Source: an uncultured Butyrivibrio sp.
GTDB lineage: Bacteria; Bacillota; Clostridia; Lachnospirales; Lachnospiraceae
Assembly (NCBI GenBank): GCA_946546925.1
Contig: CAMNOS010000013.1
Location: 1 to 34,191 of the forward strand
Direction of reading: 5' to 3'
DNA length: 34,191 bases
Shown here: one piece after another, positions 8,156-22,164 of the stretch
How the letters are laid out: the number at the start of each line of letters is the position of its first letter
Position numbering within the stretch: the stretch's first letter is position 1
Notes under the pieces: generated by a model
The model's database searches: none
Told to the model about the DNA's origin: nothing
The model's input: only the letters and a program-made list of their open reading frames with translations
Program-made: the position numbers and the translations under genes

Positions 8156-10975
8156 TTGAAAAGAAGGGCAGTCATAATAATAAATCTCCTGATAATGGGG
8201 TTCATACTGTTCTTTATCTTCCGATATGCCAATTCCAAGGCGGAGGAGAGTAGAAGTAATGGGATCGTGGCCTTTGAACAGATGACCACCACCACGAATC
8301 AGATCATCGTCAACTACCTTGAGGATGAGCAGCATCTCTGTGATATATGGGCGAACTATGTCAACAGTTCCGCGCAAGATGGAAATCCCATGACTGCAGA
8401 TGAGGCAATATCCTATATCAGAAAGGTCAAAATATCTCCGGAGATAGAGGGGCATCTTATTTTTCCCGAAAGTCCGGAAATGTCGGGGATCTCCACCACA
8501 GCCAGTGTATCGGATCCCGGTGAATTTAATGTTTCCTACAAGAGAATAAGTATATTTGACAATCTTGAAAATGTGAGCAGCGATACGGACGTTGTCAATC
8601 TCACCAGGGCCTACACCAATCCCATGAGCGGAGTGCAGTCGATTGCATTTTTAAACTATGTGACTGTCCTTGACAGGGAGAGCGGGAGCCTTAAAAAGGG
8701 CCTTTTAATGCGTGTGGTTCCTCTCAGCACCCTTGAGCAGAAGCTGGTCTTTTTAAAGGGAGAGTATGAGAACGTTGAGATCAGCCTGGTGGACCAGGAA
8801 GGCAACTACGTTGTTCACGGTAAATCCTTCAAAAACAAAAATTTCTTTGAGTACTACAAGTCATATAATGAATCCACGGCCGAGGAATACGAGAACGTCA
8901 TCAGGGAGATAACCGGCGGAACCGGCACCATGACCATAAAGAACGTCAAGGGAGAGGACTGCATACTGGCGTATACTCCCCTTGAAACCATGAAGACCTG
9001 GTCACTTCTGGCCTATATTCCTGCAGACGACCTGGTGACAAGCAGGTCCATAGACTGGCTTTTGCTTGGCATAGCATCCTGCGGCTTTGCGGCTCTTCTG
9101 ATCTTTAATTCCATCGTTTTGATGAGTTACAATCTGAAGCTCTCTGAAGCTGCCCAGCAGGCAAATCAGGCCAACGAGGCCAAGTCGTACTTTCTTTCCA
9201 CCATGTCCCACGACATCCGTACACCTATGAACGCCATACTGGGCCTTAACGAGATGGTACTCAGGGAGTCACTTGATGAAAACGTCAGGATGTATTCGGA
9301 GAATATCAGGACCGCCGGGAATACGCTGCTTGGCATCATCAATGATATCCTTGATTTCTCCAAGATAGAAGCGGGCAAAATGGAGATCATCAACGTGGAT
9401 TACAGTTTTGTCTCACTTCTCAATGATCTTGTAAATATGGTGCAGAAAAAGGCTGAAGACAAGGGCCTGTCCTTTAACCTTGATGTTGACAGAAATATCC
9501 CGACGGTCTTAAACGGGGACGAGGTGAGGATCAAACAGATCATCATAAATGTTCTTTCGAATGCCGTGAAATATACCAAACAGGGCTCCGTGACCTTTTC
9601 TCTGAATTCTCGCAGGATAGAGGACAAACCCGATTCGATAATGCTGAGAGTGAGCGTTCAGGACACCGGAATAGGCATAAAGCCTGAAGATATGGACAGA
9701 CTGTTTGTCGCTTTTGAGCGCATTGATGAAAAGAGCAACAGAAACATCGAGGGCACAGGGCTCGGAATGACTATTGTCCAGAGGTTCCTTGCCATGATGG
9801 GAAGCAGCCTCGAGGTCAAAAGTGAATACGGCAGGGGCTCCGTTTTTTCTTTTGAGATCGAGCAGAAGGTCATTAAATGGGATCCGGTGGGTAATTATGA
9901 GGAAGCATTCTACCGCTCGCTTAAAGAGCGTGTGAACTATCACGAGAAGTTCACTGCTCCCCACGCCAGAGTCCTTGTGGTTGATGATACACCCGTCAAT
10001 CTCACGGTATTCACAAACCTCCTTAAGCAGACAGCTCTTCAGATCGACACCGCAGAAAGCGGTGATGAGTGTATAGCTCTTTTTACCCAAAAGCATTATG
10101 ACGTTATCTTCCTGGATCATATGATGCCTGATAAAGACGGAATAGAGACCCTCAGGGAGATGAAGGCCATAGATGAAACCCCTAATAAGGATACTCCCGT
10201 AATCTGTCTTACAGCCAATGCAGTATCGGGCATGCGGGAGATATATACAAAGGCCGGATTTGATGACTATCTGACCAAGCCCATAGATGCCGAGAGGCTG
10301 GAAATGATGCTTCTTCAGTACCTTCCAAAGGGAAAGGTTGCGCCTGCCTTAGGCAGCGATGACAGTGACGACTACGCGCTTCCGGATTTTCTCTTTAATC
10401 TTAAGGAGATCGACGTGGGCTCGGGGCTAACTCACTGCGGAAGCGGCGAGTCATATGTGCTCACCCTCAAAATGTATTTGGACAGCGCAGAAAAAAATGC
10501 GGAAGAGATCGAGAAATATTGGGCTGCCGGTGACATAAAGAACACCACCATCAAGGTTCATGCCCTGAAGAGTACGTCCCGGGTAATAGGAGCACTGGAG
10601 CTTGGAGAATTTGCCGCAAGGCTTGAAAAAGCGGGGGATTGCGGAGATGTTGAGACCCTGGATAAAGAGCTTGGAGAGCTGATCTCACAGTACAGGCAGC
10701 TTGCCGTGGACCTTGAGCCTTTACGGGAGCAGGACGGGGAAGAAAAAGAGGATTCCCGGCCCCTTATAGATGACGGGGACCTTAAGGAGATCTACAGTTC
10801 CCTTTCGGAATTCTGCGAAAACTATGATTTTGACAGCGTGGTCAATTTGGTGGAGGCTTTGAACAAATACAGAATACCGGAGGATGAAGCAACGCGAGTT
10901 GACGCTATAAAGAAAGCAGTGGATAATTATGATTATGAGATGATACCGGGGATCCTTTCCGGGGAAATGGGATAA
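8156..10975 (+). CDS. Transmembrane hybrid histidine kinase (sensor, HisKA, HATPase, REC, HPt)
   Basis: The 939-residue product can run a whole phosphorelay. Residues 5-24 are a membrane segment after a KRR start. About 25-298 are extracellular and resemble a double-Cache sensor. About 300-325 (WLLLGIASCGFAALLIF) are the second membrane segment. HisKA has MSHDIRTPMN with His352. The ATPase shows the N box IIINVLSNAVKYT, then DTGIGI and GTGLGMTI. The receiver begins VLVVDDTPVN and carries Asp654 in IFLDHMMPDKDG. The HPt domain has KVHALKSTS with His802. A final helical segment of about 80 residues has no clear name. The start is TTG. The gene ends two bases before the next, and three coregulated genes follow, including a binding protein and an HD-GYP output. 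The ligand is unknown; recognition through the neighbouring lipoprotein is inferred. Confidence 0.93.
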   Translation: MKRRAVIIINLLIMGFILFFIFRYANSKAEESRSNGIVAFEQMTTTTNQIIVNYLEDEQHLCDIWANYVNSSAQDGNPMTADEAISYIRKVKISPEIEGHLIFPESPEMSGISTTASVSDPGEFNVSYKRISIFDNLENVSSDTDVVNLTRAYTNPMSGVQSIAFLNYVTVLDRESGSLKKGLLMRVVPLSTLEQKLVFLKGEYENVEISLVDQEGNYVVHGKSFKNKNFFEYYKSYNESTAEEYENVIREITGGTGTMTIKNVKGEDCILAYTPLETMKTWSLLAYIPADDLVTSRSIDWLLLGIASCGFAALLIFNSIVLMSYNLKLSEAAQQANQANEAKSYFLSTMSHDIRTPMNAILGLNEMVLRESLDENVRMYSENIRTAGNTLLGIINDILDFSKIEAGKMEIINVDYSFVSLLNDLVNMVQKKAEDKGLSFNLDVDRNIPTVLNGDEVRIKQIIINVLSNAVKYTKQGSVTFSLNSRRIEDKPDSIMLRVSVQDTGIGIKPEDMDRLFVAFERIDEKSNRNIEGTGLGMTIVQRFLAMMGSSLEVKSEYGRGSVFSFEIEQKVIKWDPVGNYEEAFYRSLKERVNYHEKFTAPHARVLVVDDTPVNLTVFTNLLKQTALQIDTAESGDECIALFTQKHYDVIFLDHMMPDKDGIETLREMKAIDETPNKDTPVICLTANAVSGMREIYTKAGFDDYLTKPIDAERLEMMLLQYLPKGKVAPALGSDDSDDYALPDFLFNLKEIDVGSGLTHCGSGESYVLTLKMYLDSAEKNAEEIEKYWAAGDIKNTTIKVHALKSTSRVIGALELGEFAARLEKAGDCGDVETLDKELGELISQYRQLAVDLEPLREQDGEEKEDSRPLIDDGDLKEIYSSLSEFCENYDFDSVVNLVEALNKYRIPEDEATRVDAIKKAVDNYDYEMIPGILSGEMG

Positions 10976-10977
10976 AG

Positions 10978-11748
10978 ATGATAAGCACTGTACTTTTAGT
11001 CAGCAGCGGCTTCGGATTTATGGCCGAGGCTCTGGACAGCAATCTGAAAATGCAAGGTTTTACCACGGGCTTTGCACAGAACAAGGTAAGGAGCATCAAG
11101 GAGAAAAAGGATGGAAGCGACATAATCCTTCTGCTTGCCGGGGACTTCGTATATGACTCTGCGGAGACTCTTGTCTATTTAAAGGACATAACTGAGGATG
11201 GGAGCCTTCCTCTGTGCGCGATAGGGCATGATGAGGAGCTCGAGGCAATCTTTCACTATATACCGCAGGACAATTTTTTAAAGATATTCAGACGCCCCTT
11301 TGATGCAAAGCACATAGCCGAAGAGATCAGGTATATAGCCAAGACGGAGGAGGAAAGCGAAGGCGGGAAGAAGATCCTGCTTGTGGATGATGATCCTCTT
11401 TTCCTTAAGATGTTGCAGGGGTGGCTGAGGGATAAATACAATATAACGGCAGTCAAGTCGGGAATGCAGGCCATTACCTACCTTGCCAATCACTCTCCGG
11501 ACCTGATACTGCTTGATTATGACATGCCCATAACACCGGGGCCCCAGGTCATGGAGATGATACGCAGTGAGTACAATGCCAAGGAAGTGCCTATTATCTT
11601 TCTTACTGGCAAGTCGGATAGGGAAAGCATACTACGGGTCATGAAGCTCAAGCCCCAGGGATATCTTCTTAAGACCATGACAAGAGATGATATCGTATCT
11701 GCAATAGATAATTATTTTAGGACACACAGATGGGATAATTATGGTTAA
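10978..11748 (+). CDS. Double-receiver response regulator, first receiver degenerate
   Basis: The product has 256 residues and no DNA-binding or enzymatic output domain. The C-terminal half (about 130-250) is a canonical receiver: ILLVDDDPLF holds the acidic pocket, LILLDYDMP holds the phospho-acceptor Asp180, then IIFLTGK and GYLLKTM give the Thr and Lys. The N-terminal half (about 1-120) has a receiver-like pattern, but LLVSSGFGF lacks the acidic pair and ILLLAGDF lacks Asp at the acceptor position, so it looks like a pseudo-receiver. The start follows a purine-rich GGGA just after the kinase stop. A role as phosphate shuttle or sink, or as a protein-protein adaptor in the relay from HPt to the HD-GYP protein, is inferred from context. 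Confidence 0.85.
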   Translation: MISTVLLVSSGFGFMAEALDSNLKMQGFTTGFAQNKVRSIKEKKDGSDIILLLAGDFVYDSAETLVYLKDITEDGSLPLCAIGHDEELEAIFHYIPQDNFLKIFRRPFDAKHIAEEIRYIAKTEEESEGGKKILLVDDDPLFLKMLQGWLRDKYNITAVKSGMQAITYLANHSPDLILLDYDMPITPGPQVMEMIRSEYNAKEVPIIFLTGKSDRESILRVMKLKPQGYLLKTMTRDDIVSAIDNYFRTHRWDNYG

Positions 11749-11763
11749 TGGAGGGAGATGCCT

Positions 11764-13065
11764 ATGAAGAAGACCTTTGGAAGGATTCTTTCTTTAAGCC
11801 TTGCAGCTATGCTTTTACTGCAGGGCTGCGGCAAAAGTGAAAAGGAGCCTGCGGAAGGCTTTGTTCCCCGATACGACAAGGACACGGAGTTTTCTTTGAC
11901 GGTGGCAGGCAGCTATTCGAACTTTGAGTCGCTGGAAGCAGAGTTTGAGCGCTTTTACGAATACTACCCGGAGGCAAGCCTGGAGTATGTGACCATGGAT
12001 GACTACGACAACGTTATCTCCAGCGCCCTTATTAACAGCGAGCCGCCGGATATTTTCACCACCAACACCTGGATGGTGGGCAATGAAAAGTATGACAGCA
12101 TGTTTGATGCCTGCGAGGTACTGTCGGATCCGGAGCTGGATATGGATTACTCCTGCATCAGAGAATCTCTCATATGGTCCATGGATTCGGGGGATGTGGT
12201 GATGCTTCCTATCTTTACTTCGTCCTTTGGGATGCTGGTCAATATGGACATCTTTGAAAAAGAAGGACTGGAGGTTCCCACTGACTTTGACGAGCTTTTG
12301 AGGGTCTGCGGCAAGCTTAAGAGCGCCGGATATGAATCTCCGGTTATGGGGGCTGACAAGTTTTCAGGGCCCGGGCTGTTTAACTGCTTTGTCTATCCGA
12401 TGTTTGCCTACAATGTAATGGAGAACAGCGACAAGGCTGATGCGCTCAATAATCTTGAGGCTTCTGCCGGAGAGCTTATGCGTCCCTCGCTGGAAAGACT
12501 CTATGAATTTGTCAATTCTGGCTGTATAGACGTGGAAAAATGCCGTGAGGAGATAACGGACGACTATGACTCCGTGATCATGAGATTTTTTGAGGGTGAT
12601 GTTCCCATGATGTTCGCCACAGGCGATGTGGCGTCTGGAACGGCCAAGAGAGAGAGTAAATCCGGGGCCTTTTCGGCGCATCCGTTTAAATACAGATTTT
12701 TTGTGGCTCCCTCAGGGGATGACGGCGGATATTTCATCAATTCTACCAGCCTTTGTTTTTCTGTCAATAAGAACAGCAGGAACATAGAGATGACCAATGA
12801 GTTCATGAGGTTTTTGCTGAGAAGGGAAGAGCTTGGCAATATGGCAGGCTTGAAGCGCCTGATCACTCCCACCGAGGATCTTTCCTTCGATGAGCTTTAC
12901 TCATCGCTTGCAGACATACCGTCTGACAGGTGCTTCAGTGACAAGGAGACAGGTCTTATGGATCCGGCCGTCAGACAGTTCAGGGCTGCCATTTATGCAG
13001 TGGGCAACGGCGACATGACGGTGGATGAGGCTGTTGCAGCGTATGGAAGTATTCCTGAGGAGTAG
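11764..13065 (+). CDS. Extracellular solute-binding lipoprotein (ABC family 1 type)
   Basis: The product (433 residues) looks like a type-1 carbohydrate-type ABC substrate-binding protein. It has a lipoprotein signal with the lipobox LLLQGC, so Cys22 should be lipidated and the protein anchored outside the membrane. The mature part has the family pattern: an early domain with FERFYEYYPEASLEYV, a hinge-like DIFTTNTWMVG, MLVNMDIFEKEGLEVPTDFDELL, then a late stretch with PFKYRFFVAPSGDDGGY and FINSTSLCFSV. The ATG at 11764 is preferred over 11758 because GGAGGG then sits eight rather than two bases away. There are no permease or ATPase genes on either side. The gene lies 15 bases after a response regulator and 8 bases before an HD-GYP gene. 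A sensory rather than transport role is therefore inferred. The ligand is unknown. Confidence 0.88.
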   Translation: MKKTFGRILSLSLAAMLLLQGCGKSEKEPAEGFVPRYDKDTEFSLTVAGSYSNFESLEAEFERFYEYYPEASLEYVTMDDYDNVISSALINSEPPDIFTTNTWMVGNEKYDSMFDACEVLSDPELDMDYSCIRESLIWSMDSGDVVMLPIFTSSFGMLVNMDIFEKEGLEVPTDFDELLRVCGKLKSAGYESPVMGADKFSGPGLFNCFVYPMFAYNVMENSDKADALNNLEASAGELMRPSLERLYEFVNSGCIDVEKCREEITDDYDSVIMRFFEGDVPMMFATGDVASGTAKRESKSGAFSAHPFKYRFFVAPSGDDGGYFINSTSLCFSVNKNSRNIEMTNEFMRFLLRREELGNMAGLKRLITPTEDLSFDELYSSLADIPSDRCFSDKETGLMDPAVRQFRAAIYAVGNGDMTVDEAVAAYGSIPEE

Positions 13066-13073
13066 AACGGATA

Positions 13074-14096
13074 ATGAACGAGAGAATAGTTATAGTTGAC
13101 GATGATGCCATAATCCTTCGGGGTGCCGACAGCACACTGTCGGGGGATTATAAGGTGACCTGCCTAAAAAGCGGCAGGATGTTCCTTGATTATGTAAAAA
13201 AGAATCCGGTGGACATGCTCCTGTTGGACATAAGAATGCCGGAGATGGACGGCTTTGAGACCCTCAAGGCCCTGAGAGACTGGGAGAGGGAGAGCGGGCA
13301 TAAAAAAACTCCGGTGATCTTCCTTACTGCCAATGATGACGGTGAATCCGAGACCAGGGGACTCTCCATGGGGGCCATGGATTTTATCCGCAAGCCCTTT
13401 GCCAGTGATGTTCTAAAGCTCAGGATAGGAAACCTCCTTGAGCTTATAAGGCTTCAAAATGATCTTCACCATGAGGTTGAGATCAAGACTGCGCAGGTTG
13501 AAAGCTTGTCTGTCCATCTTGTTCAGACTCTGGCAGAGGCACTGGATGCCAAGGACAATTACACAAACGGTCATTCCACCCGTGTTGCCATGTATTCTAA
13601 AGAGATTGCCGGAAGATATGGCTACTCAGCTAAGAGGCAGGAAGAAATTTACATGATGGGGCTTCTCCACGATGTGGGCAAGATAGGGATTCCGGATGAA
13701 ATAATCAACAAGCCCGGAAGGCTTACGGATGAGGAATATGCGGTGATAAAAGAGCACCCAAAGAAGGGCGCCAAGATACTGTCTGCCGTCACCGAGATGC
13801 CCGGGCTCGTTACAGGGGCCAGATGGCATCACGAGCGCTATGACGGGAAGGGATATCCCGACGGCCTTGCGGGTGATGACATACCTGAAGAGGCCAGGAT
13901 AATCGCAGTTGCCGATGCTTATGACGCAATGACCAGCAACAGGAGCTACAGGGAGATAATCCCAAGAGACCGGGTCATCAGCGAGATCAACAAAGGTATG
14001 GGGACACAGTTTGACGAGCGTTTTGCCAGGATCATGCTCCGGATGATAGACGAGGACAAGGACTATACCATGCGCCAGCATTTGTCGGGGGACTGA
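13074..14096 (+). CDS. Response regulator with HD-GYP c-di-GMP phosphodiesterase output
   Basis: The product (340 residues) should hydrolyse cyclic di-GMP when its receiver is phosphorylated. Residues about 1-120 are a receiver: VIVDDDAIIL holds the acidic pocket, LLLDIRMPEMDG the acceptor Asp52, then VIFLTAN and IRKPF. A helical linker (about 125-165) leads to an HD-GYP domain with LLHDVGKIGIPDEI (His199, Asp200), IKEHPKKG, WHHERYDGKGYPDGL and VADAYDAMTS. All metal-binding and signature residues seem intact, so it is probably active. It closes the kinase operon, eight bases after the lipoprotein gene, and is the only member with an obvious enzymatic output. No strong terminator follows. Confidence 0.94.
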   Translation: MNERIVIVDDDAIILRGADSTLSGDYKVTCLKSGRMFLDYVKKNPVDMLLLDIRMPEMDGFETLKALRDWERESGHKKTPVIFLTANDDGESETRGLSMGAMDFIRKPFASDVLKLRIGNLLELIRLQNDLHHEVEIKTAQVESLSVHLVQTLAEALDAKDNYTNGHSTRVAMYSKEIAGRYGYSAKRQEEIYMMGLLHDVGKIGIPDEIINKPGRLTDEEYAVIKEHPKKGAKILSAVTEMPGLVTGARWHHERYDGKGYPDGLAGDDIPEEARIIAVADAYDAMTSNRSYREIIPRDRVISEINKGMGTQFDERFARIMLRMIDEDKDYTMRQHLSGD

Positions 14097-14191: not shown

Positions 14192-14791
14192 ATGAATATA
14201 GTATGTTTGGATCTTGAGGGAGTACTGGTACCGGAGATATGGATCGCATTTTCAGAGGCAAGCGGGATACCGGAACTGAGAAGGACTACCAGGGATGAAC
14301 CTGATTACGACAAGCTTATGAAATACAGGATTGGAATCCTTAAGGAGCACGGACTTGGACTTAAGGAGATTCAGGAGACCATAGCAAAGATCGATCCCCT
14401 TCCCGGAGCTAAAGAATTTTTGGATGAACTAAGGAAGATTACCCAGGTCATCATCATAAGTGATACTTTTACACAGTTTGCAACTCCACTAATGGAGAAG
14501 CTTGGCTGGCCCACACTTTTCTGCAACAGCCTTGAAGTTGCGGATAACGGTGAGATAACGGGCTTTAGGATGAGAATTGAGAATTCCAAGCTTACAACTG
14601 TCAAGGCACTTCAGTCGATCGGATATGACACGATCGCAAGCGGTGACAGCTTCAATGATCTTGCAATGATCAAGGCATCCAAGGCCGGCTTTTTGTTCCG
14701 TTCAACAGACGCAATAAAAGCCGACAATCCTGAGCTGCCGGCTTTTGATGAGTTCGATGATCTCTTAAATGCAATCAGGTCAAGTATGTAA
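14192..14791 (+). CDS. thrH: ThrH-type phosphoserine phosphatase / homoserine phosphotransferase
   Basis: The product (199 residues) belongs to the HAD-superfamily ThrH group. The Pseudomonas enzyme dephosphorylates phosphoserine and can pass the phosphate to homoserine, linking serine and threonine synthesis. The first motif LDLEGVLVPEIWIAF is near-identical to that enzyme, followed by TTRDEPDYDKLMKYR, the second motif IIISDTF, and the third GDSFNDLAMI. Length is usual for ThrH and shorter than SerB. AAGGAG lies eight bases before the ATG. The 3' end overlaps the convergent EAL gene by 12 bases. Activity as plain phosphoserine phosphatase is the safest call; the transferase activity is inferred from the family. 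Confidence 0.9.
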   Translation: MNIVCLDLEGVLVPEIWIAFSEASGIPELRRTTRDEPDYDKLMKYRIGILKEHGLGLKEIQETIAKIDPLPGAKEFLDELRKITQVIIISDTFTQFATPLMEKLGWPTLFCNSLEVADNGEITGFRMRIENSKLTTVKALQSIGYDTIASGDSFNDLAMIKASKAGFLFRSTDAIKADNPELPAFDEFDDLLNAIRSSM

Positions 14792-16678
14792 TGGAGAATA
14801 TTTCCTGAGGAAATCGTTCATGGACAGGGGCTTGGAGTAGTAGTAGCCCTGCAGAAGATCGCAGCCGATGGAGCACATCATTTCCGCCATCTTTTTGTCC
14901 TCGATTCCCTCTGAGGTGATCCCGAAGTTCATGTGCTTGAAAGCCTGTATCATACTGGGCAGGATCTCGTCCGGGTCTTTGTAGTAGTCCCAGACGAGAC
15001 TCATATCCAGCTTTACATTGATGAAGGAGCACTTTTTCAGTCTTGTGAGATTGGAGTAGCCTATGCCGTAGTCGTCAAGTACAAAACTGAATCCCTTTTC
15101 CTGCATGGCGGTTATCTGTCTGTGCAGTAAGTTTTCATCTATCATGGATTCCTCAGTTATCTCTAAGTGGATCATGTGAGGATCGACATTGTATTTTCTG
15201 ATTATGGAGTCGAATCTTTCGGCGAGGTCGGACTTCATAAACTGTATTGGAGAGAGATTTACATTGATCCACTCAAGCCCAAGTGATCTTACGTCATGTT
15301 CCGATATGAAACGGCAGGTCTTTTCAAATACCTGCTCGCCGAGCTGGTTTATTCTTCCGTTGGCTTCAGCAATGTGTATAAAGGCACCTGGAGGGAGAAT
15401 ATTGTTGTTGTCATCCCTTATCCTGCAGAGTGCCTCAGCACCTTTGAGGGTCTCAGTCTGAGCATCAACCAGAGGCTGCAGGAACACCTCAACCTTGTCG
15501 TTGTCGACTGCAGTTTCCAGATGTCTCTTTATTGCAGTTTCATCTTCATTTATCCTGAGCTCATTGTCAGAGACAAAAATGAGTTCATCCGATCCCTTGT
15601 CTGCCTTGTCAAAGGCGCGGATGAGGAAGTTCAGCAGCGAATCTGCTGACTGCACCCTTGATCCCATGTCGAATTGAACAAGGCCTGCTTCCAGATAGAG
15701 CTCAAGTTCGTCTGCACGCCAGGGACGCTTGAATCTTTCTTTTATCTCCGCAGAAATTCTGGAATAATCAAGGCCCTTGTTCCCAAGCATTATGAATCTT
15801 CCCTTCCTGTAGTAGAAGGTAGTTATGTCCTTGTAGTTCTGAGTCAGATAATTGCTGATAAGTACGATACCTGCATCAATCTGTCTTCCGCCGTATATAT
15901 CCCTCATCTCGTGATAGTTCTTAACCACTACGCCAAGAATCTTGTGGCGCAGTCTGCCGTTGTTCTCATCAATATAGTCCCTGAATGCTGTAGCATTGAA
16001 TACTGAACCTCTTGCCTCAAGATAGAACTCGGGATTCTCCGTTGCCAGATATACTATCAGGATCGATATAAGGCAGAAGGTGTCCATGAGAAGCAGGGTG
16101 GGAAAGAGCTTTCTTAAAATTATCCCCACAAGAAGGATGGTATTACAGAAAAACAGACTGTAGTAGTGACGCTTTCTTCGGATGTTCCTGGAAAAGAGAA
16201 AGACTATCATGAAAGACAGGAATAGGTAATATCCAAAAAGCACATATAGGATATTGTAAAGAGGTCCGCTTACGTAGCCATCATCTGTGATTGAAAAGAT
16301 AAGTCCCGTCCATGGGGATGTTATCGCAAGAACCTCACTTATCAGAAGCGGGATATGAATGACATTGTATCTGCGGATATTTTTGGCGTTGACGATTCTG
16401 AACGAGCTTGCAATGAATGCAAAAAAGCAGGCGCCTCGTGCATAGAAAGCCACAAAGAAGCCTACGTTCAGAAGATAGGTAAGAAAAAGCGGAAAGTCCC
16501 GGTAATTATTGTCGGCATAACTTGAAAAAATATCAAGGGAAATAACCACCGACTCAACAATAAGAAGAAGCAGGAAAAAGTGGTTTTTCCTGATATCAAG
16601 TCTGGGCAGCGAAAAATAGAACATCAGAACTATTATTATTATTAAAAAGCTTGGAATAACAAAGCCAAAATTCCACAT
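14780..16678 (-). CDS. Membrane c-di-GMP phosphodiesterase, 7-TM, degenerate GGDEF and EAL domains
   Basis: The 632-residue product likely degrades cyclic di-GMP in response to a membrane-sensed cue. Residues 1-215 hold about seven hydrophobic helices, starting with FGFVIPSFLIIIIVLMFYF. Residues about 230-370 fit a GGDEF fold, but the active-site signature is replaced by RKGRFIML, so it should not make c-di-GMP and may be regulatory. Residues about 385-632 are EAL: GAEALCRI (Glu415), NLSPIQF, LEITEES, LDDYGIGYSNL, VKLDMSL, SEGIED and QGYYYSKPL keep the catalytic and metal-binding residues. The ATG at 16678 follows GGTGG by seven bases. The stop overlaps thrH by 12 bases. Signal and partners are unknown. 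Confidence 0.92.
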   Translation of the reverse strand: MWNFGFVIPSFLIIIIVLMFYFSLPRLDIRKNHFFLLLLIVESVVISLDIFSSYADNNYRDFPLFLTYLLNVGFFVAFYARGACFFAFIASSFRIVNAKNIRRYNVIHIPLLISEVLAITSPWTGLIFSITDDGYVSGPLYNILYVLFGYYLFLSFMIVFLFSRNIRRKRHYYSLFFCNTILLVGIILRKLFPTLLLMDTFCLISILIVYLATENPEFYLEARGSVFNATAFRDYIDENNGRLRHKILGVVVKNYHEMRDIYGGRQIDAGIVLISNYLTQNYKDITTFYYRKGRFIMLGNKGLDYSRISAEIKERFKRPWRADELELYLEAGLVQFDMGSRVQSADSLLNFLIRAFDKADKGSDELIFVSDNELRINEDETAIKRHLETAVDNDKVEVFLQPLVDAQTETLKGAEALCRIRDDNNNILPPGAFIHIAEANGRINQLGEQVFEKTCRFISEHDVRSLGLEWINVNLSPIQFMKSDLAERFDSIIRKYNVDPHMIHLEITEESMIDENLLHRQITAMQEKGFSFVLDDYGIGYSNLTRLKKCSFINVKLDMSLVWDYYKDPDEILPSMIQAFKHMNFGITSEGIEDKKMAEMMCSIGCDLLQGYYYSKPLSMNDFLRKYSPLHT

Positions 16679-19512: not shown

Positions 19513-19550
19513 AGAAGCTGATGCATTTGACTTATGCATCAGCTTCTTTT
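19513..19550 (+). terminator. Strong terminator of purC, overlapping the end of the convergent gene
   Basis: AGAAGCTGATGCAT (19513-19526) pairs perfectly over 14 bp with ATGCATCAGCTTCT (19534-19547) across a seven-base loop, followed by TTT. The 3' arm also encodes the last residues (KEADA) of the convergent EAL-GGDEF gene. On the minus strand the sequence after the stem is not U-rich, so it is best as a plus-strand terminator. Confidence 0.85.
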
Positions 19551-22096
19551 AACTGTCTCTTATTGATATACATCTCCGCATCGGCTCTTTTGAACACCGG
19601 GGAGACATTTCTGTCGTTCTGATAGCGGCTTACACCTGCCGCAATGACTACATCGCCCTTCTTCTGGTTCTTGCGGTTGTGCTTTTTGAAACGGGTCATG
19701 ATGGATTCAATGTTGAGGTAATCATAGCCTGTGACAATTGCCACAAATTCGTCGCCGCCTATTCTGAATACCGGGCTGTGCTTGAAGAAGCGGCAGATGG
19801 TATCGCATCCTCTGATTATGTAACGATCCCCGGCCTGGTGTCCCTTTGTGTCATTTATCTGTTTTAAGTTATTGATGTCAAAGACTGCGACTGCAAAGGG
19901 CGGGTACTGGGCTGACGCAAGAAGGCTGTTCATTTTTTTTACGGTGTCCGCATAGGCGTGCTTGTTCTTTACCCCTGTAAGTTCATCGAGATTGGCCTTG
20001 CTCTCGGCGGCAAAGAGCTTTTCCTGGTATTCCATTTCCCGCTGGATCTTCTCATCAATGTTGAGTATTCCGACGATCAGCTTCTTTTCCCCATCCTCTG
20101 TCACGATGGTTGCCCTCATTGATACATATATGGGTTTTCCGTCGATGAGGAGACGGTGCTTGTTCTCATAGATGCCCTTTGAACTGATCTCCTCAAGCAC
20201 GTGTTCCCTTGTAAATGAGGAAAGAAAACCATCTACATCTTCCTTGCAGATGCCATAAGGAATTCTCTTTGTCACATCTTCAAAAAAATCATCCCCCTCA
20301 TCATTTATTGCCATAGCAGATTCTTTTCCGAGAGGACTTGTCTTGGTATAGCTGAAGTCTTCAAGCGAAACAGTAAACAGATAGATATAGTCCCCTGTGA
20401 GTGCGCTGATACGCTGATAGATGATCTTTTCTTCCCGGGCGCGCTCTAAGGCTTCCCTTTCCTTCATATGGGCATCGATGCTGCTTATCCCCACTATGAT
20501 ATGGTTGCCGTTTCCCCTGACCCTTACAGCCTTGGCGTTGACATAGACGGGAATCCCATCCATGATGATCCTGGTTACATGGGAGAAAGATCCCTGCTCG
20601 TCAAGAGCTCTTTCTATATTGGCTTTGGTGAAGTTCTGTCTCAGCTGAGGTTTATCCGCTTCGACAAAAGTAAGATCAAGACTTGCTTTATCGATATCGA
20701 AGAAGTGTTCGCCGTGCTTTTCAATGGAGATGTCACGGTTTTCGCCGTTGGAGGCATATTCCGTATATCTGTCGGTGTCCATATCCACATAAAAGAGCTT
20801 GATATAGTCGGAAGAGAGGACTCTTGCCACATAGTTGTAGCTCAGAGCCTCTGCACTTACGGAGTCGGAAATTGACAGCACCACAATTACCACGGCCTTG
20901 GCTCCGGTTAGCGGATTTACTGCAATTCTCTGGATGAGCAGCTGAATCTGTCTTCCGTCTTCGAGCCTGTCGTCAATGATGATCCTCTTGCCGTCTTCAG
21001 CGCACTGCCTGACAGCTTTAAATGCATAGAAACCAACTCCAGGTTTGATACTGTCGTAAGTAATGCTTCTTTTGGCTGTGGTATATGAAAATGCGTTTTT
21101 TATGAATTCCCTGTAGGTTTTGTTGCATCTGATAAATGTGGCGGCATTATCATCCAGAGAGTAGATTGCCATAGGCAGGGTATCAAAATACTTATCGAGG
21201 GATGTATCGCTCCCTTTGGAAAAAGAGAGATCGTAGAGATTAACTTTACCGAGCTGTTCGTAGTACTCAAACTCCTCCGGGTTCTCAAATCCAATTTGTA
21301 TTCCCTTTTTGTTCCTCTCAATAATGGTAGCGAGAGAAACAGGGTGGATGAAGTGAAAGCCCTGAAGCTTGGTACAGCCTATTTCCATGAGGAAATCTGC
21401 CTGTTCTTTGGTCTCGACACCTTCAGCTACCGTGTCAATCCCAAGCGCGAGAGCAGTTTTTATCAGCTGGGTCAGTATGATCTGAACGGCGTCGTTATTG
21501 CCGATCTGAGCCACAAGTGACTGATCTATCTTTAAGAGATTGAAATGTATCTTTGTAAGCATTAGAAGAGAGGAGTAGCCGCTTCCGTAGTCGTCCATCC
21601 ATACACTTATACCTTCATTCTGAAAGCGCTCAACCTGTTCTTTCATAAAATCAGGGGCGGAAGATATGGCTTTCTCCGAAAGCTCAACTGACAGCTTCTC
21701 CCTGGGAAGGCCTGAAGCGTCGATTATCCTTACTATTTCTTTTACCATGTCACAGCTGTCGAAATCGGATCTTGAGAGATTGACAGACTCGGGAACGATA
21801 TAAAGACCATGCTCGTCCTGGCCCTTCATCTTACGAAGGACTCTTTCCACCATGTACAGATCGAGCTTGTATGAAAGATGTGCTTTATCAAGAATCGGAA
21901 CAAAATCGGTTGCAAGAAACATCCCCAATTCAGGATCTTCCCACCTTGCGAAGGCTTCCTCCTCAGAGACCTTGCCGCTGGCCGCACGAAGAAGAGGCTG
22001 GTGATAAGCCTTGATCCACTCTTCAGAAATGGCTCTGTCGAGGTTCTCTATGAAGTACCGCTCATCCGCAGAAAAGGAAAGTGAAAATGCGTCCAA
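19532..22096 (-). CDS. Cytosolic EAL-PAS-PAS-PAS-GGDEF c-di-GMP protein
   Basis: The product (854 residues from the TTG start) has no membrane segment. Residues about 5-255 are an EAL domain: the signature is EEAFARW (EAF for EAL, Glu47), with VNLSRSDF, SVELSEKAI, MDDYGSGYSSLL, LKIDQSL, AEGVET and QGFHF, so most catalytic residues remain. Next come three PAS-like modules (about 280-400, 410-535, 545-665). The last two are similar to each other, each with a conserved DG(I/K)P(V/I)YV core and an I(V/I)VGI strand. The GGDEF domain (about 685-854) has DELTGVKNKHAY, FDINNLKQIN and RIGGDEF (780-784), so it should be an active diguanylate cyclase. No RxxD inhibitory site is seen upstream of it. The EAL-first order is the reverse of the usual one. 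The net direction of activity cannot be told from sequence. Confidence 0.9.
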   Translation of the reverse strand: MDAFSLSFSADERYFIENLDRAISEEWIKAYHQPLLRAASGKVSEEEAFARWEDPELGMFLATDFVPILDKAHLSYKLDLYMVERVLRKMKGQDEHGLYIVPESVNLSRSDFDSCDMVKEIVRIIDASGLPREKLSVELSEKAISSAPDFMKEQVERFQNEGISVWMDDYGSGYSSLLMLTKIHFNLLKIDQSLVAQIGNNDAVQIILTQLIKTALALGIDTVAEGVETKEQADFLMEIGCTKLQGFHFIHPVSLATIIERNKKGIQIGFENPEEFEYYEQLGKVNLYDLSFSKGSDTSLDKYFDTLPMAIYSLDDNAATFIRCNKTYREFIKNAFSYTTAKRSITYDSIKPGVGFYAFKAVRQCAEDGKRIIIDDRLEDGRQIQLLIQRIAVNPLTGAKAVVIVVLSISDSVSAEALSYNYVARVLSSDYIKLFYVDMDTDRYTEYASNGENRDISIEKHGEHFFDIDKASLDLTFVEADKPQLRQNFTKANIERALDEQGSFSHVTRIIMDGIPVYVNAKAVRVRGNGNHIIVGISSIDAHMKEREALERAREEKIIYQRISALTGDYIYLFTVSLEDFSYTKTSPLGKESAMAINDEGDDFFEDVTKRIPYGICKEDVDGFLSSFTREHVLEEISSKGIYENKHRLLIDGKPIYVSMRATIVTEDGEKKLIVGILNIDEKIQREMEYQEKLFAAESKANLDELTGVKNKHAYADTVKKMNSLLASAQYPPFAVAVFDINNLKQINDTKGHQAGDRYIIRGCDTICRFFKHSPVFRIGGDEFVAIVTGYDYLNIESIMTRFKKHNRKNQKKGDVVIAAGVSRYQNDRNVSPVFKRADAEMYINKRQLKEADA

Positions 22097-22101
22097 TGAT
22101 G

Positions 22102-22106
22102 CCTCC
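22102..22106 (-). promoter_or_regulatory. Ribosome binding site favouring the TTG start at 22096
   Basis: On the minus strand GGAGG lies five bases before TTG at 22096. The longer frame also begins with TTG, at 22135, but has no Shine-Dalgarno match and almost coincides with the predicted transcript start. No in-frame ATG exists near either. The upstream choice would add 13 residues. Confidence 0.65.
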
Positions 22107-22164
22107 GATGATAAGCTCAGTGAATATCTGTTCAAAAATGCATATTTATTTACCCACTATTCTA

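Follow-up and report, generated by a model that had tools for sequence, protein, structure and literature searches.

A solute-binding lipoprotein paired with a hybrid histidine kinase in Butyrivibrio and its relatives, and its probable connection to cyclic di-GMP turnover

The window analyzed here, a stretch of 34,191 nucleotides from an uncultured Butyrivibrio sp. (GenBank assembly GCA_946546925.1, contig CAMNOS010000013.1, positions 1 to 34,191 of the forward strand), contains four co-directional genes that code, in this order, for a hybrid histidine kinase, a receiver protein, a solute-binding lipoprotein (SBP) and a REC-HD-GYP response regulator (Table 1). An earlier, sequence-only reading of this DNA had taken them for a single transcript on account of gaps of 2, 15 and 8 bases, and the coordinates of the open reading frames (ORFs) bear out these gaps; the value of 15 assumes that the SBP gene starts at the ATG with the better-spaced GGAGG, a second in-frame ATG being present at 11758. 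No terminator-like site was detected at the three gene junctions, which is a weak test (the scan returned 11 sites, against 5.4 in shuffled sequences). That the neighborhood reflects more than chance is indicated by its conservation among relatives, and we propose below that it probably specifies a phosphorelay which is gated by the SBP and acts on cyclic di-GMP (c-di-GMP).

Table 1. The four-gene set and other features of the window
Feature	Position	Strand	Remarks
Hybrid histidine kinase, 939 aa	8156..10975	+	TTG start after GGAGGG
Receiver protein, 256 aa	10978..11748	+	gap of 2 after the kinase gene
SBP, lipoprotein assigned to the CUT1 type	11764..13065	+	SBP_bac_1; gap of 15 after the receiver gene
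REC-HD-GYP response regulator	13074..14096	+	D52 in REC; gap of 8 after the SBP gene
Maf and Cof-type HAD genes	upstream of the four-gene set		
thrH and EAL gene	downstream of the four-gene set	other strand	EAL gene is one of the two listed next
EAL-domain gene	14780-16678	-	downstream of the four-gene set
Second EAL gene	19532-22135	-	EAL N-terminal, GGDEF C-terminal
ORF of 2392 aa	25406-32584	+	Listeria-Bacteroides repeat, chitobiase C-terminal-like domain

The kinase has two hydrophobic segments (residues ~4-25 and ~299-323), which bracket an extracellular sensor of the dCACHE type (~23-300). These are followed by HisKA (342-407), HATPase_c (454-569), Response_reg (606-718) and Hpt (771-842, E 2e-8) domains detected with Pfam, and by a tail of ~80 residues beyond the Hpt domain. 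The relay residues named in the sequence-only reading, namely H352 of HisKA (SHDIRTP), D654 of REC (LDHMMP) and H802 of Hpt (HALKST), are all present at those positions. A profile of the sensor matched no PDB sequence at E<=1, and its identification as a dCACHE domain comes from a fold search, in which the structural model (pLDDT 85) matched the dCACHE sensors MkcA, TlpA, Mlp37 and PscC and the kinase sensors mmHK1S and soHK1S; with E-values allowed up to 0.1, Pfam finds dCache_1 in 22 of the 50 sensors, the match of the first member lying below the cut-off. The second protein had been described as a double receiver, which holds for one half of it: Response_reg matches only at residues 133-243 (with D180) and there is no output domain, while residues 1-125 match no Pfam family, show only weak likeness to receivers (hhalign probability 34) and probably represent a degenerate receiver. 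The REC-HD-GYP protein retains intact HD and HHExxDGxGYP motifs and is predicted from its family to be a c-di-GMP phosphodiesterase.

The longer reading of the SBP carries a lipobox (LLLQGC, residues 19-24), and the protein matches SBP_bac_1 at 54.7 bits (cut-off 26). Fold searches with its model (pLDDT 88.9) recovered RafE, GacH and CbpB as well as binders of chitin-, cello- and xylo-oligosaccharides, with TM-scores of 0.62-0.68 to the RafE entries. By predicted fold and sequence the SBP is assigned to the CUT1 class of oligosaccharide binders, and by analogy its ligand is most likely an oligosaccharide.

Strong relatives of the SBP (E 7e-102 or better) are present in 18 of 299 genomes of the same family, its own included. 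The next match, in genome G177 (G-numbers are our labels for same-family genomes and L-numbers for the compared loci), has 34% identity and also has a kinase directly upstream. Using an alignment of these 18 proteins to scan named species genomes we recovered at least 478 relatives, the best 80 of which were studied as loci. The relatives are named as Butyrivibrio, Pseudobutyrivibrio, Oribacterium, Lachnospira multipara and Eubacterium oxidoreducens and include many metagenome-assembled genomes from the rumen or forestomach, with a few labeled Oscillospiraceae, Ruminococcus, Solobacterium or Erysipelotrichaceae. At E 1e-40 the SBP occurs in 22 of 344 genomes of the order, with one match in each; eight of these belong to its own genus, in which at least six genomes are without it in the same scan. 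In a sample of the phylum it was found in 2 of 299 genomes, both of its own family, and a scan of viral contigs recovered no relative.

A kinase adjoins the SBP in 76 of the 80 loci and a sensor remnant does so in L075, which amounts to 77 of the 77 loci where the contig reaches upstream, the contigs of L064, L072 and L124 ending 91-732 bases upstream of the SBP. The remnant in L075 (7497-9155) is a single ORF that opens with C-terminal sensor sequence and continues as the SBP, the kinase core having been lost to a deletion or an assembly fault. The kinase is split into two consecutive ORFs in L081 and L112 (532+299 and 429+500 aa) by a frameshift or an assembly fault, and L057 has a second hybrid kinase after the SBP (9699-11570, + strand; 624 aa, HisKA-HATPase-REC). 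Kinase and SBP genes are separated by a median gap of 12.5 nucleotides, with overlaps in 28 of the 64 measured pairs, starts having been picked by a simple rule. The exact gene order of the window recurs in six loci (L071, L073, L076, L083, L091 and L092) and the permuted order SBP-kinase-receiver-HD-GYP in L130 only. The other strings are kinase-SBP-HD-GYP (12 loci), that string plus a stand-alone convergent Hpt gene (17 loci) and kinase-SBP alone (26 loci), and L042 (8234-13435) has the order SBP-kinase-HD-GYP. Conservation of the gene order, on which the sequence-only reading had made its proposal depend, is thus found for the core of kinase and SBP, which is the conserved unit, but not for the exact four-gene set, which is a minority state.

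Because retrieval by the SBP biases the choice of loci, we also conducted a reverse search, in which an alignment of 50 sensor sequences was run against the same 299 family genomes. A strong sensor (E 3e-92 or better) is present in 20 of them, and 18 of these are the 18 genomes with the SBP. Co-divergence was computed over 71 rows, which comprise the window and 70 of the 80 loci (the other ten had short or missing segments). SBP distances correlate with those of the sensor at r 0.90 and with those of the kinase core at r 0.77 (partial r 0.78 versus -0.36), with permutations that ignore kinship. The distances of SBP and HD-GYP correlate at 0.93 in the 36 rows with an HD-GYP, and linked inheritance therefore explains part of the correlation between sensor and SBP.

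The closest relatives of the SBP by both sequence and fold are transport SBPs. It could accordingly serve in ordinary uptake with a shared permease whose gene lies elsewhere in the genome, its place in the operon being mere proximity. However, a search with profiles built from two CUT1 permease pairs (at L053 and L055, which as seeds do not serve as a control) revealed no ABC permease among the ORFs present up to five genes from the SBP at any of the 80 loci, many of them too short to hold that many genes; this is in line with the earlier description of a binding protein without a permease. A permease lies eight genes from the SBP in L082 and L093. Applied to 14 ordinary SBPs of the genome from which the window comes, the same profiles identified a permease neighbor for 7; contig ends cut some of the 14 places. 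A pure transport role is not favored by this comparison, and with sensor and SBP co-occurring in 18 of the 20 sensor genomes we regard the uptake explanation as very improbable. Three of these 14 ordinary SBP genes (L183, L184 and L185) adjoin kinases, with no permease found beside them; two of the kinases are of the PF06580 type and one is a hybrid of 1040 aa with a sub-threshold dCache_1. The pairing of SBPs with kinases is hence common in this genome.

The coupling to c-di-GMP breakdown that had been suggested for the locus stands as regards the position of the enzyme, but a GGDEF or EAL protein can take the place of HD-GYP. Enzymes of c-di-GMP metabolism, detected by blastp to the window's EAL, EAL-GGDEF and HD-GYP proteins, occupy 26 of the 78 positions at gene +1 and 19 of the 71 at gene +2 (45/149 together), against 20 of 680 at the other positions from -7 to +8. 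A REC-HD-GYP protein adjoins in 37 of the 80 loci, and its HD, HHExxDGxGYP and phospho-Asp motifs are intact in all 37. In seven loci without HD-GYP the next gene is GGDEF or EAL (L063, L064, L118, L122, L124, L128 and L134). By Pfam, L118 and L122 have GGDEF alone, L063 has PAS-GGDEF and L128 has REC-GGDEF-EAL; the next gene of L124 and L134 has REC and EAL by blastp and a size like that of the REC-EAL type regulator of L128.

HD-GYP was not found in 43 loci (15 of them with less than 3 kb downstream), and 26 loci show kinase and SBP only. This raises the possibility that the main output is another response regulator encoded elsewhere rather than c-di-GMP, with the HD-GYP protein and the small receiver as side branches. 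Against this stand the enrichment of c-di-GMP enzymes at +1 and +2, with different types in the same slot, and the distribution of HD-GYP over the kinase tree, where it occurs in L130, the group-A branch and the two group-B branches; we judge such an output distinctly unlikely.

The window's genome encodes three PilZ proteins, which are possible c-di-GMP readers. FliF is present in 14 of the 20 sensor-bearing family genomes, compared with 154 among all 299 (p 0.11); of the 11 sensor genomes that also have the HD-GYP gene, 10 carry FliF (p 0.011). As presence was read by eye, kinship is uncorrected and the HD-GYP subset was picked after the first result had been seen, a link of the SBP-kinase system to motility via FliF is suggestive only. 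In L092 and L115 the gene immediately upstream of the kinase codes for a protein of 713 or 715 aa that resembles EAL/GGDEF proteins. Both EAL genes of the window itself are less than ~8 kb downstream of the four-gene set, and the second has an unusual domain order. The ORF of 2392 aa listed in Table 1 codes for a probable surface protein.

The Hpt domain is fused to the kinase in the type seen in the window and encoded by a separate convergent gene in 23 loci, with only L117 having both. In the 22 separate Hpts shorter than 230 aa the motif H-x-L-K-[ST] is conserved, and their alignment with the fused kinase covers its C-terminus including the tail; the pattern HxLK[GS] fits one of the 23, the others having T in the alignment. 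In a kinase tree of the window and 72 of the 80 loci, with the tail scored by protein length, L130, the group-A branch and one group-B branch each combine the receiver protein, HD-GYP, a fused Hpt and the tail. Counted over 30 of the 38 fused-Hpt loci (the other eight lacked a long enough downstream flank or a motif match), tail and HD-GYP are both present in 19 and both absent in 9, with the tail alone in 2 and HD-GYP alone in 0. The tree needs a single tail change, leaving one independent pair, and for this reason the association, which suggests that the tail is a dock for regulators, is without statistical weight.

Several known systems resemble parts of this arrangement. In LuxP-LuxQ of Vibrio the hybrid kinase LuxQ is engaged at its extracytoplasmic sensor by the binding protein LuxP, with autoinducer-2 (AI-2) as ligand and LuxU/LuxO as output; the combination of binding protein and hybrid kinase is shared, whereas LuxP is of another SBP class and has another ligand and another output. 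RpfC of Xanthomonas has a fatty-acid membrane input, unlike the two hydrophobic segments around a dCACHE domain seen here. MbaA of Vibrio cholerae is a bifunctional c-di-GMP enzyme on which NspS acts, and no phosphorelay is known to link the two. The binding protein of NspS-MbaA controls c-di-GMP turnover (PMC8967002); the window likewise links a binding protein to c-di-GMP, but with a kinase phosphorelay in between. In CuaD-CuaS-CuaR of Ruminiclostridium cellulolyticum the SBP CuaD, with cellobiose as ligand, binds the sensor CuaS, a HAMP-type kinase, and the AraC-type transcription factor CuaR induces the neighboring transporter operon (PMC10384115). Here too a putatively sensing SBP lipoprotein is encoded with a two-transmembrane sensor kinase in a Clostridium, and as in SBP-dependent three-component systems of the CuaDSR and LuxPQ type the SBP gene adjoins that of a kinase with an extracytoplasmic sensor; a full phosphorelay and a c-di-GMP enzyme, in contrast, replace the HAMP kinase and AraC-type regulator.

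RpfC-RpfG consists of a kinase-REC-Hpt hybrid, which senses the fatty acid diffusible signal factor (DSF), and a REC-HD-GYP phosphodiesterase (PMC3749722). The window shares its HisKA, HATPase, REC and Hpt kinase and a REC-HD-GYP protein with intact catalytic motifs, and has in addition an SBP lipoprotein, no binding protein being mentioned in the accessible part of that paper. The CahR receptors, dCACHE AI-2 receptors of rumen bacteria with kinases among them, are defined by residues R126, W128, Y144, D146 and D173 of PctA (PMC9540692), and resemble our set in having dCACHE sensors in rumen bacteria. The R-x-W of the AI-2/amino-acid motif is absent from all 50 sensors in a pattern search, as distinct from residue mapping, and AI-2 sensing is on this ground not favored. 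In c-di-GMP enzymes with fused periplasmic-binding-protein (PBP) domains, the PBP-clan domain is joined to GGDEF, EAL or HD-GYP (PMC8846402), unlike the separate lipoprotein here, which is proposed to act through the kinase. The parts and the architecture are each known, but neither their combination nor its spread and exchangeable outputs were found among the matches listed in the open-access literature (titles and abstract starts). No description of an SBP-kinase-HD-GYP set was found there either, as the sequence-only reading had supposed of this exact set of parts.

By analogy with these systems we consider it likely that the four-gene set is an SBP-gated phosphorelay with a LuxPQ/CuaDS-like input and an RpfC/RpfG-like output, and most likely a three-component relay from glycan to c-di-GMP. 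The lipoprotein, anchored outside the cell, would bind its ligand, most likely an oligosaccharide, and dock on the kinase's dCACHE sensor, which would alter autophosphorylation of H352. Phosphate would pass from H352 via D654 and H802 to the REC domain of the HD-GYP protein, whose phosphorylation would switch c-di-GMP breakdown on or off and hence attachment or motility, and the small receiver protein (D180) may serve as a side acceptor or phosphate sink. We infer the direction of the relay and the phosphodiesterase activity from the protein families; the contact between SBP and sensor, the sugar ligand and the behavior under control are conjectural.

A number of observations weigh against this proposal. 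Domains of the dCACHE type often bind ligands directly. The genomes G139 and G236 keep the kinase, an Hpt gene and the REC-HD-GYP gene with no SBP in its place, so that an absolute need for the SBP is disfavored; at these loci (L164 and L163, respectively) the Hpt gene is convergent and the SBP is gone from between its neighbors. G042, G073 and G118 contain incomplete SBP-like fragments (40-47% identity) with no listed sensor match; these fragments, together with the selection bias behind the 77 of 77 loci, slightly lower our confidence in the SBP relay. The correlation between sensor and SBP is also expected from linked inheritance, and L130 (8001-14017, Butyrivibrio sp. MB2005), where a group-C SBP stands before a group-A kinase with receiver protein and HD-GYP, seems to have exchanged its SBP. 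In L077 the separate Hpt falls under the Pfam cut-off (21.3 versus 24.6 bits). The group-C kinase of L118 contains two RECs, and Pfam recognizes no Hpt in it; a clade of 13 kinases keeps the SBP without the tail and the receiver protein and, in the ten members that can be judged, without HD-GYP.

It is conceivable that the dCACHE sensor binds a small ligand of its own and that the SBP is an optional co-receptor which raises sensitivity. The sensor has the fold of direct ligand binders, the relay is retained without the SBP in G139 and G236, and in CuaDSR loss of CuaD leaves the sensor CuaS responsive, CuaD being proposed to raise its sensitivity (PMC10384115). On the other hand, the SBP adjoins a kinase or sensor remnant in every readable locus, albeit among loci found via the SBP, the unbiased co-occurrence is 18 of 20 sensor genomes, and the sensors lack the R-x-W pattern; we therefore hold the co-receptor explanation to be rather unlikely.

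Beyond the window, it is possible, though we advance this only tentatively, that the SBP-gated phosphorelay exemplifies a widespread signaling family in rumen-type Clostridia that combines a glycan-lipoprotein/dCACHE-kinase input with exchangeable REC-HD-GYP or REC-GGDEF-EAL outputs, an Hpt that is fused or separate, and a tail that docks the HD-GYP regulator. To our knowledge, little is understood of how rumen fiber degraders choose between attachment to plant particles and departure from them, and the open-access literature searched rarely treats c-di-GMP in Butyrivibrio. If the proposal is correct, plant glycans would directly set attachment or motility in these bacteria, and the conserved input-output unit would offer a defined set of proteins for probing a path from extracellular sugar to c-di-GMP.

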